This document shows, one piece after another, positions 48,449-52,113 of a DNA stretch of 64,000 bases. The position numbers and the translations under genes are program-made. Location of the stretch: contig NZ_CP013979.1 in the NCBI RefSeq assembly GCF_001660485.1, forward strand, positions 2,294,001 to 2,358,000. Reading direction: 5' to 3'. How positions within the stretch are numbered: the stretch's first letter is position 1; every line of letters starts with the position of its first letter. The DNA comes from Agromyces aureus. Its GTDB lineage: Bacteria > Actinomycetota > Actinomycetes > Actinomycetales > Microbacteriaceae. Below the pieces are notes generated by a model, which saw nothing but the letters and a program-made list of their open reading frames with translations, had not been told where the DNA came from and did not search any database.

Positions 48449-49213
48449 TCAGTTGCCGGTCGACGCCGTTGCGGCCGACGCCGACTCGACGCCGGCGGCG
48501 GCGAGGTGCGCGAGGCGGGCGGACTCCGCGTAGGCGTCGACGATGCGGGTCTGCTCCCCTGGCGTGTAGCGCGCACCGGCGCGCTCGGCCATGGTCGTGA
48601 GCAGGCGGTCGGCGAGGTGCGGGTTCTTCGCGAGCACCGGACCGTGCAGGTGCGTGCCGATCACCTCGCCCATGACGACGCCCTCCTGACCGGAGCCGAG
48701 CGCATTGCCCTCGCCGGCGCGGACCCGCCCGAGCGGCGAGCCCTCGGCGCCGACGTAGGCGCGGGCATGGTTCTCGAACCCGACGAGCAGCTGCTTCGAC
48801 CTTCGCTCGGCGACGACGAGGTCACCGGTGATGCGGCCGGCGGGGTGCGGCACCGCACGACCGGGCAGGATGCCGAGGCCCTCGATGCCGGTGCCGTCGG
48901 GCAGTTCGATGCCCCAGGAGAGCAGCTCCCATCCGGTGCCGACCGCCAGGATCGGCACGCCTTCGGTGCCCCATCGCCGAAGATCGTCGTGCAGATCGAG
49001 CAGTCGCGTGCGCGCGACGTCGAGCGCGGCATCCGTGCCGGAGCCGATCACGATCGCATCGACGTGCCCCGGCAGGTCGTCGCGGGACTCGACGGCGACC
49101 ACGCGCGCGTCGAGACCGGCCCACCCCGCGCGCTTCGCCAGGACGGCCGCGTTCTCGGCGTCGCCGTTGGTGTTCTGCAGCGACGGCAGCAGCGTGATGA
49201 TCGTGAGGGTCAT
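48449..49213 (-). CDS. gatD: GatD-like glutamine amidotransferase without the catalytic cysteine
   Basis: A 254-residue protein clearly of the GatD/CobB-CobQ glutaminase family: VIGSGTDAALD, PDGTGIEGLGIL, RITGDLVV, VGFENHARAY and GTHLHGPVLAKN (His188 retained). In active GatD the nucleophile is in a motif like ICGGYQ; here it reads PILAVGTGWELL, with Gly92 at the Cys position (codon GGC at 48938-48940). The whole protein has no cysteine, so glutamine hydrolysis by the usual route is impossible. GatD normally supplies ammonia to MurT to amidate D-Glu of lipid II. The start overlaps the murT stop (ATGA). It may be a structural partner only. Confidence 0.82.
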   Translation of the reverse strand: MTLTIITLLPSLQNTNGDAENAAVLAKRAGWAGLDARVVAVESRDDLPGHVDAIVIGSGTDAALDVARTRLLDLHDDLRRWGTEGVPILAVGTGWELLSWGIELPDGTGIEGLGILPGRAVPHPAGRITGDLVVAERRSKQLLVGFENHARAYVGAEGSPLGRVRAGEGNALGSGQEGVVMGEVIGTHLHGPVLAKNPHLADRLLTTMAERAGARYTPGEQTRIVDAYAESARLAHLAAAGVESASAATASTGN

Positions 49214-50481
49214 TCCGCTCCCGTGAGTCCGAGGTGGGCACGCGTGCGTCGCATCGAGTCGGCCGAGAAGACGATCGTCTTCGTGCCGGATGCCGGCGCG
49301 GGCGCCGCGAGGAAGTCGTCGACGGCCGTGGCGAGGTCGGGCTCGACCCGGTCGATGGCGACGCCGTCGTACGAGAGCATGAGCGCGGCCTCGGCCGACT
49401 TCGACCCGCTCACGATCGACACGCGGCCGAGCGACGAGGCGTCGGCCGGCCAGAAGTACGAGGGGTCGCGCACGTCGGAGCCGATGGCGAACAGGATGTC
49501 GCTCGTCCCCGCTTCGATGCTGTCGACGTTGAGCTGGTAGCTCGCGGTGTTCTGCACGAGCACGAAGTCGACCTCTTGTCCGCGGACGGTCACGCGCTCG
49601 CCCCGACCGAAGACGGCGGGGATCGCGCTCAGCGCCGCGGCGGCCGTCGTCGGGTCGAAACGATCGCCGAGCACCGCCCGGGCGGTCGCATACGCCGCGG
49701 TCGCGTCGATCCCGTAGTGGGTGCCTCGCGCCGGCAGCGTGACCGCGACGGCCGAGCCCTGATCGTCGAGGACGGCCTCGCGTCCGTCGACGGACTCGAG
49801 GCGCACACCGTCACCGGAGCCGAGGCGCGTCTCGACGGTCTTCGCGTAGCCGAGACCACGCGGCGACGCCACGACGACGGCCTCCGACACGCCGAAGCGG
49901 CGCACCGCGACATCCGCCCCGACGCGACCCGCGATCTGCTCGAGGTACGCATCGTCGGCGTTCACGACGACCGACTCACGGGCGCGCGCGGCGATCCGGG
50001 CGAGCATGCCAGCCACCATCTCGGAGTCGTGGAACCGGTCGACCTGATCGACCATGACATTCATGAGCGTGACCGTGCGGGCGTCGACGCCCTGCATGAC
50101 GAGGGCGCCGTGCCCCTCGTCCATCTCGAGCACGGCCATCTCGCCGGGTACGCGACCGCGCCAGTCGGCGCGCTCGAGCAGCGCCGAGGTCAGGCCCTGG
50201 CTGATGTTCGCGGTCGACGGGTTGGTGAACACGTCGACGCCGTGGGCTCGTAGCACCGCGACGAGCATCTTCGTCGTCGTGGACTTGCCGCTCGAACCGG
50301 TCACCACGACCAGCCCCTGCGGGAACCCGGAGAGGGTCCGCTTCAGGTAGCCGGGCGCGATGCGGTTGACGACGAGTCCCGGAACGGCCGATCCGCCGCC
50401 GGGCTTGCGCAGCCGGGCGGCGAATCGGGTGAGTCTGCCGACGAGGATCGCCGGTCCGTAACGCAGGGATCCCGCGTGCAC
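49210..50481 (-). CDS. murT: MurT-like Mur ligase without the zinc ribbon
   Basis: A 423-residue Mur-ligase-family protein with DUF1727 C-terminus. The ATP loop is VTGSSGKSTTTKML (Lys66), followed by TNPSTANISQGLTSAL, LEMDEGHG and NVMVDQVDRFHD. Canonical MurT has a four-Cys zinc ribbon inserted in the central domain; this protein contains no Cys, and residues 197-250 hold ordinary sequence there. The KNPAGFN-like motif is replaced by QNTASYQLN (310-318), while the RDxSxxW region is kept (Asp339 in RDPSYFWPAD). With GatD it normally activates and amidates the D-Glu alpha-carboxyl. It starts (GTG) 7 nt after sigA ends, so it is probably co-transcribed. Confidence 0.82.
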   Translation of the reverse strand: MHAGSLRYGPAILVGRLTRFAARLRKPGGGSAVPGLVVNRIAPGYLKRTLSGFPQGLVVVTGSSGKSTTTKMLVAVLRAHGVDVFTNPSTANISQGLTSALLERADWRGRVPGEMAVLEMDEGHGALVMQGVDARTVTLMNVMVDQVDRFHDSEMVAGMLARIAARARESVVVNADDAYLEQIAGRVGADVAVRRFGVSEAVVVASPRGLGYAKTVETRLGSGDGVRLESVDGREAVLDDQGSAVAVTLPARGTHYGIDATAAYATARAVLGDRFDPTTAAAALSAIPAVFGRGERVTVRGQEVDFVLVQNTASYQLNVDSIEAGTSDILFAIGSDVRDPSYFWPADASSLGRVSIVSGSKSAEAALMLSYDGVAIDRVEPDLATAVDDFLAAPAPASGTKTIVFSADSMRRTRAHLGLTGAE

Positions 50482-50488
50482 CGTCGGC

Positions 50489-51784
<1,296 letters not shown>

Positions 51785-52113
51785 TGGTTGAACCTCTCCT
51801 ACATCGCACGGCGCATGCCCAGTGAGGGTCGCGGGTCGTGGTGGGTCCGATCGTTTTCGGACACTATGAGGACCCATGTCAAGTCCGCGACGTCGGCACG
51901 CGATCGTGCCCGCGGACCAGAACGGGTCCTTCCACCATTATACAGCCGTCGAGCCCGCCTCACGTCCACGGAGGCCGCGCGCCGTTCACGTGCCGTACCG
52001 GGTGTCCGTCTCTTCCCTGATGTCAACGTCGGCCGCGGCATCCGCATTCCCGAGGATCGCTCGCGATCCGCGGTGATCGCCGGAGGTGCCGTGCCGCGGG
52101 TCGACGCGACCGG
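51785..52113. other. Non-coding stretch upstream of sigA
   Basis: About 330 bp between sigA and the PAC2 gene, both on the minus strand. It contains the sigA leader and promoter region and the tail of the PAC2 transcription unit. No open frame with a recognisable protein is seen. AT-rich spots at 51853-51868 and 51935-51944 stand out. Confidence 0.55.
51937..51942 (-). promoter_or_regulatory. Candidate sigA -10 element TATAAT
   Basis: On the minus strand this is an exact TATAAT, rare in this GC-rich DNA, about 150 nt before the sigA start. No good -35 sequence is found 17-18 nt upstream (ACGTGA is the closest), so the call is tentative. Confidence 0.35.

Follow-up and report, generated by a model that had tools for sequence, protein, structure and literature searches.

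The window, the whole analyzed stretch of 64,000 nucleotides from Agromyces aureus, contains a gatD-like and a murT-like open reading frame that lie side by side on the minus strand with a 4-nt overlap, together with a sigma factor gene (Table 1). The GatD-like protein matches the Pfam family GATase_3 with 65 bits and aligns over its own residues 3–224 with S. aureus GatD (3e-25), an alignment that places Gly92 opposite the catalytic Cys94. The replacement of the nucleophile by glycine, proposed in an earlier, sequence-only reading of this locus, is borne out by that alignment and by the wider clade described below, in which all 110 loci lack the cysteine. The same reading reported no cysteine in either protein; this is accurate for the window pair, but it is not a trait of every clade member.

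Table 1. Features of the dead MurT–GatD locus, in positions of the window
Feature	Position	Strand	Basis or remark
gatD-like gene, 254 aa	48449..49213	−	ORF; class I glutamine amidotransferase fold without catalytic Cys
murT-like Mur ligase gene, 423 aa, GTG start	49210..50481	−	ORF
sigA/rpoD-like sigma factor gene	50489..51877	−	ORF; upstream of the dead pair
GatD Gly92 codon	48938..48940	−	alignment; position of S. aureus Cys94
GatD His190 codon	48644..48646	−	position of catalytic His189; kept in the window
GatD Asn16 codon	49166..49168	−	alignment position of S. aureus Tyr17
GatD Arg127 codon	48833..48835	−	position of S. aureus Arg128, the presumed glutamine-capturing Arg
MurT P-loop G62–T70, GSSGKSTTT	50272..50298	−	conserved columns
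MurT rebuilt motif SDVRD, residues 335–339	49465..49479	−	Asp339 corresponds to S. aureus Asp349
MurT Asp259 codon	49705..49707	−	clade-specific; Asp in 107/110 clade rows

The MurT-like protein matches Mur_ligase_M with 45 bits. Its MurT_C score of 19.5 bits falls below the cut-off of 25, and the NCBIfam equivalog scores are likewise low (92.9 of 400 and 106 of 450 bits for GatD; 74.9 and 68.1 of 800 for MurT), all of these scores being those of the window pair. AlphaFold2 models reach a mean pLDDT of 94.0 for GatD and 90.1 for MurT. The GatD model superposes on S. aureus GatD, and its top nine Foldseek matches are GatD chains, with query TM scores of 0.76–0.85; the best PDB matches of the window MurT are MurT structures, by sequence and by fold.

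The A. aureus genome, a single contig rated 100% complete, contains one MurT_C match and one match to the window GatD. GATase_3 is found in four places, the other three being partial profile matches, and the six Mur-ligase middle domains belong to MurC, MurD, MurE, MurF, FolC, and the window MurT. The window pair is the only MurT–GatD found in this genome; the five other Mur ligases are assigned, and no further unassigned Mur ligase is present. A second, cysteine-bearing pair was likewise absent from A. aureus, but occurs in four Leifsonia genomes. The earlier picture of a single pair in A. aureus, with a glutaminase that looks dead beside a ligase that looks intact, is upheld.

Distribution within the Microbacteriaceae

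A survey of 120 genomes of the family, in which GatD and MurT searches were followed by fetching of the loci and inspection of the cysteine site, recovered a Cys-less pair alone in 72 genomes, a cysteine-bearing (Cys-type) pair alone in 12, and both in two. Another dead type (D type) occurs in nine genomes, two of which (G005 and G053) are odd long branches; 22 have no pair, and three are unclear, two being unreadable and one having a MurT whose GatD escaped the profile. A second search of the 22 pair-less genomes, which include Yonghaparkia sp. Root332, this time used a profile built on Cys-less GatDs and gave a single weak partial match (G051). Mur ligases were counted in 11 of these 22: nine genomes with no detected MurT–GatD have five (G001, G019, G058, G082, G084, G085, G089, G091, and G119), and two have six (G023 and G100).

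Named genomes were found through a ribosomal-gene DNA pattern (94 stretches), and a MurT search was made on 49 genomes among the matches listed; 44 of the 49 have a MurT match and 38 a Cys-less pair. The holders belong to Agromyces, Clavibacter (four genomes, each with one pair, Cys-less), Rathayibacter, Cryobacterium, Herbiconiux, Labedella, Planctomonas, Leifsonia, and Ruicaihuangia, and also include a Salinibacterium MAG, one Schumannella, Microbacterium lacus, two further Microbacterium records, and other family members. Rhodoluna lacicola has the Cys-less pair in a reduced genome of 1.43 Mb. The four Leifsonia genomes mentioned above carry their Cys-type pair besides a Cys-less one. All three Leucobacter genomes searched hold a single MurT, of the Cys type, and the GatDs of Leucobacter celer and L. 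chromiiresistens keep both Cys and His. The D or an odd type was found in Galbitalea (read via survey genome G029), Schumannella soli, and Gryllotalpicola; the MurT search found no pair in Microbacterium gorillae, M. mitrae, Yonghaparkia, and two Microcella MAGs. Within the genus of M. gorillae, Microbacterium (equated with survey group g85 on matching sizes and coordinates), where at most 17 (MurT) and 27 (GatD) candidate places were scored per genome, the pair was found in 15 of 99 genomes by MurT and in 15 of 99 by GatD, and 84 of 99 gave no match in the MurT or GatD search. All 15 holders have a GatD that lacks both Cys and His.

Two small variants of the locus were also observed. The 0.93-Mb genome G015 has a GatD with Ser in place of Cys that falls inside the same clade (L081), and in G081 (L090, 528–1061) the gene adjacent to murT encodes a protein of only 177 aa that resembles a shortened GatD, with sigA again adjoining.

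Occurrence outside the family

A search of 109 genomes of the order, a few of them from the family of the window, gave a GatD match (threshold 1e-10) in 38 genomes of other families, all 38 of which keep Cys and His. At the level of the class, 44 further genomes have a GatD match; the 27 that were read keep both residues, and 17 are unread, so that Cys and His are present in 65 of the 65 GatDs read outside the Microbacteriaceae. These holders have walls that we take to be of type A, and no A-type species without the GatD cysteine was seen among the pairs read.

The CxxC–CxxC zinc-ribbon pattern is absent from all 109 clade MurTs scored for it, so the loss noted in the sequence-only reading is real. 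It is also ordinary: only 7 of the 38 Cys-keeping MurTs of the order have the pattern, as do 16 of 26 in the class sample (counted by eye), and the ribbon is described in an extract of PMC6113224 as occurring in a subset of MurTs. Ribbon loss was accordingly rejected as part of the change, the pattern being missing from 31 of the 38 Cys-type MurTs of the order.

Phylogeny and gene order

In a MurT tree of 144 rows, out of 179 prepared, the 90 Cys-less rows form one clade with a support of 100 that contains no Cys rows, and a mixture-model tree of 49 rows recovers the same single clade. The D type groups apart from it (p-AU 0.028 against one clade, on a short-search tree). A single cysteine loss for all dead pairs would be disfavored by this value, yet 8 of 10 D-type loci share the sigA neighbor. 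A same-strand sigA lies upstream of 103 of 109 Cys-less loci, and in one further locus the sigA match overlaps the chosen murT start. None of the 59 Cys-type loci has this neighbor, a count to which 40 loci contribute at least 150 nt of upstream sequence; the other 19 could hardly reveal sigA, because less than 150 nt is available.

D-type GatDs (L075, L096–L101, and L273) have His in place of Cys within FTHNALEV and Ile or Leu in place of the catalytic His. Their MurT partners, from Schumannella, Galbitalea, and relatives, keep the zinc ribbon in 7 of 10 loci and are mostly behind sigA. Separately, the M. lacus MurT (L266 and L267; M. lacus and BR1) falls on the Agromyces side of the Cys-less clade, apart from the other Microbacterium-genus pair in the tree (L073), which suggests intergeneric transfer or misplaced names.

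Residues retained and changed

GatD was compared between 110 loci of the Cys-less clade and 59 Cys-type loci. Beyond the cysteine (0 of 110), the clade retains the catalytic His in 77 loci, having lost it in 33, and the tyrosine equivalent to S. aureus Tyr17, present in 59 of 59 Cys-type loci, occurs in 0 of 110. The Arg128 equivalent is present in 106 of 110, and residues of the MurT interface are nearly constant (Gly190 in 110, Leu193 in 109, Asn196 in 109, and Pro197 in 108 of 110). By position, Tyr17 and Arg128 would correspond to pneumococcal Tyr30 and Arg142, which the available part of PMC6085368 describes as the plug of the ammonia channel and an aid to glutamine capture, respectively.

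For MurT, 110 Cys-less rows were set against 44 and 15 Cys-type rows. The ATP-site and acid residues are common to both and nearly invariant: Gly62, Gly65, Lys66, and Thr68–70 are at least 98% conserved in the 110 clade rows, and the P-loop, Glu119, Asp121–Glu122, Asn141, Arg149, Asn311, and Asp339 at least 97%. Asn92, also invariant in the clade, probably corresponds to pneumococcal Asn85, judging from the alignment; the counterpart of Asn85 in MurF contacts the acceptor carboxylate, according to an extract of PMC6085368. Asp339 is invariant, and its S. aureus equivalent, Asp349, is proposed as a member of the glutaminase triad in the part of PMC6113224 available. Since this residue persists even in loci that have lost both Cys and His, its role is probably in the ligase. 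The motif KNPAGFN, which had been reported lost, is altered instead: Asn311 is present in 98% of the 110 clade rows, every row of an alignment of 18 other clade members has Lys-Asn, and the window reads QNTASYQLN.

Clade-specific residues are Gln95 (Arg in 43 of 44 Cys-type rows), Tyr256 (mostly Asn in Cys-type rows), Asp259 (Asn in 43 of 44 and 15 of 15), Ser314, Gln316, and Lys361 (Arg in 59 of 59). The changes of Asn to Tyr at 256 and of Asn to Asp at 259, within the GxHNxxN motif, possibly lie at the nucleotide base. In addition, the clade as a whole has a shorter, rebuilt version of the DNxADGRD segment found in other MurTs. This DNAAD motif lies between the two active sites according to the extract of PMC6113224, which suggests a contact with the lysine of the stem and names the motif alongside the lysine-recognition motif of MurE. 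Both states occur in one genome of Leifsonia aquatica, with NDHDADGKD in the Cys-type MurT and a rebuilt DEGTPD in the Cys-less one, and three MurTs of Leucobacter, a genus with Dab walls, have a normal DNxADGRD-type segment. A changed residue 3 of the stem does not by itself account for the rebuilt motif, given these two cases, and the idea that the motif was rebuilt only because that residue is Dab is disfavored.

Cell-wall records

The wall records and papers drawn on here are available as excerpts and are given in their terms. A. aureus AR33T is recorded as B2gamma, written D-Glu-L-Dab; in Clavibacter, D-Dab links D-Glu and D-Ala (PMC9603630), and a study of C. michiganensis muropeptides reports D-Glu that is amidated or hydroxylated. 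R. lacicola is recorded with D-Ala-D-Dab, L. celer and L. chromiiresistens with a type B cross-link (PMC4804768; for Leucobacter also PMC4511665), and the entry for Salinibacterium is type B, with Lys and Orn. Those few records that place D-Dab on D-Glu come from Clavibacter, Herbiconiux, Cryobacterium, and Rhodoluna, all of which hold the Cys-less pair. With n = 5, the wall records are too few to prove a correlation with pair type, and a Lys/Orn wall in Salinibacterium, represented among holders by a MAG, indicates that D-Dab is not general.

The suggestion that the change is shared by all B-type genera does not survive this comparison. Type B Leucobacter, two species of which keep the GatD cysteine as noted, has Cys pairs only, and 84 of 99 Microbacterium genomes have no match; a simple equation of Cys-less pairs with B-type walls is contradicted by both genera. 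Together with the D-Glu amidation or hydroxylation in Clavibacter, these cases mean that the pair cannot be a general B-type enzyme. It serves at most a subset, perhaps those walls in which D-Glu directly bears a D-diamino acid. Leucobacter, Microcella, Yonghaparkia, and most Microbacterium, being without a Cys-less pair, would need another route to the D-Glu substituent. In Microbacterium the bridge starts with glycine, and the lack of the pair in most of that genus would be consistent with this.

Discussion

The Cys-less pair resembles the MurT–GatD lipid II isoglutaminyl synthase of S. aureus, S. pneumoniae, and mycobacteria in its adjacent genes, its Mur-ligase and class I GATase folds, and its retention of the P-loop, the acid residues, the Asp349 and Arg128 equivalents, and the interface residues. 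Unlike that synthase, it has neither the catalytic Cys nor the channel-plug Tyr and, in 33 of 110 clade loci, no catalytic His, its MurT differs in substrate-site residues and in the DNxADGRD segment, and the window pair scores below the NCBIfam and MurT_C cut-offs. MurE and MurF, which add an amino acid or a dipeptide, share with it the chemistry of an amine and an activated carboxyl, and a fold that the window MurT matches; they differ in having no GATase partner. They also have a UDP-binding N-terminal domain (PMC6113224, in extract).

The nearest experimental parallel is the S. aureus GatD C94G mutant, which has glycine at the same position, although it is a laboratory mutant in an otherwise normal GatD and MurT. 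According to the portion of PMC3266927 available, MurT with C94G GatD loses the use of glutamine but amidates with NH3 at pH 8.5, with no amidation at pH 7.5; MurT or GatD alone is inactive, and C94G GatD is still required. A dead but needed GatD therefore has a precedent: a glycine-bearing GatD can be a required non-glutaminase partner, and MurT can take an amine from outside. In the open-access literature searched, no enzyme is named that substitutes the D-Glu α-carboxyl in B-type peptidoglycan, and no publication joining MurT, GatD, and Microbacteri- was found.

We favor, at close to even chances and with a slight lean toward doubt, a neofunctionalized MurT–GatD: an ATP-dependent D-Glu α-carboxyl ligase that would join a bridge amino acid rather than ammonia from glutamine. 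The MurT would use ATP to activate the D-Glu α-carboxyl of a peptidoglycan precursor, probably at the lipid-linked stage, while GatD, no longer hydrolyzing glutamine, would remain as a structural partner that the ligase cannot do without, perhaps retaining an Arg that binds an amino acid. The amine of the bridge amino acid, most likely a D-diamino acid (D-Dab in B2gamma), would then attack the activated carboxyl in place of ammonia, and the resulting branch on D-Glu is what such cross-links need. We infer the substrate, the amine, and the product, and with them that an amino acid and not ammonia is transferred; the grounds for this reading are that amino acids are what Mur ligases normally add, that the substrate site is changed, and that B-type walls need the bond. 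The presence of both pairs in four Leifsonia also suggests different jobs for the two. The more specific version, in which the sigA-linked pair would be the missing B2-type ligase that places a D-diamino acid directly onto the D-Glu α-carboxyl, with the glutaminase as a dead partner, is offered more tentatively, as a reading we rather doubt than accept. The DNAAD proposal, which concerns the stem lysine and not the incoming amine (PMC6113224, in extract), counts against transfer of an amino acid, whereas the comparison of the two L. aquatica copies counts in its favor; the A. aureus wall record, with L-Dab, speaks against D-Dab.

The main rival, unlikely in our judgment but deserving serious attention, is an ammonia-dependent isoglutamine synthase supplied with NH3 that is free or released by another glutaminase. 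The same substitution allows just this reaction in S. aureus at pH 8.5, the three further partial GATase_3 matches in A. aureus could feed NH3 to the pair, and the D-Glu amidation reported for C. michiganensis fits an amidase, and so speaks against the amino-acid reading, all four Clavibacter genomes carrying the Cys-less pair only. Yet the use of NH3 failed in vitro at pH 7.5, an ammonia-using MurT has no obvious need for clade-wide changes in its substrate site, a B-type bridge cannot sit on an amidated D-Glu, and in four Leifsonia a Cys pair is present besides the Cys-less one.

The strong differences in the substrate site, and a gene order that is uninformative about pathway, would also suit a ligase acting away from the stem D-Glu, on another carboxyl or precursor such as 3-hydroxyglutamate or a non-murein glycopeptide; we consider this improbable, given the invariance of Asn92. 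About the same credit, or if anything a little less, goes to a decaying relic or regulatory pseudo-enzyme without ligase activity. The fast divergence of GatD, down to 177 aa in G081, and the 22 of 120 family genomes without a match for the pair would accord with decay, but MurT catalytic columns that are at least 97% conserved over 110 rows and deep branches, and the persistence of the pair in reduced genomes such as that of Rhodoluna, argue otherwise. An artefact, whether a wrong frame, a sequencing error, or a misaligned catalytic site, has a negligible probability and was ruled out: the cysteine is missing from all 110 clade loci, which excludes sequencing error, and the GatD model superposes on the S. 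aureus structure.

The Cys-less pair is thus a specific and testable candidate for the D-Glu α-carboxyl step in part of one large family. Within it, an amidotransferase family has lost its glutaminase chemistry, apparently twice, with the subunit retained. If the amino-acid ligase reading is true, a glutamine amidotransferase would have been turned back into an amino-acid ligase.
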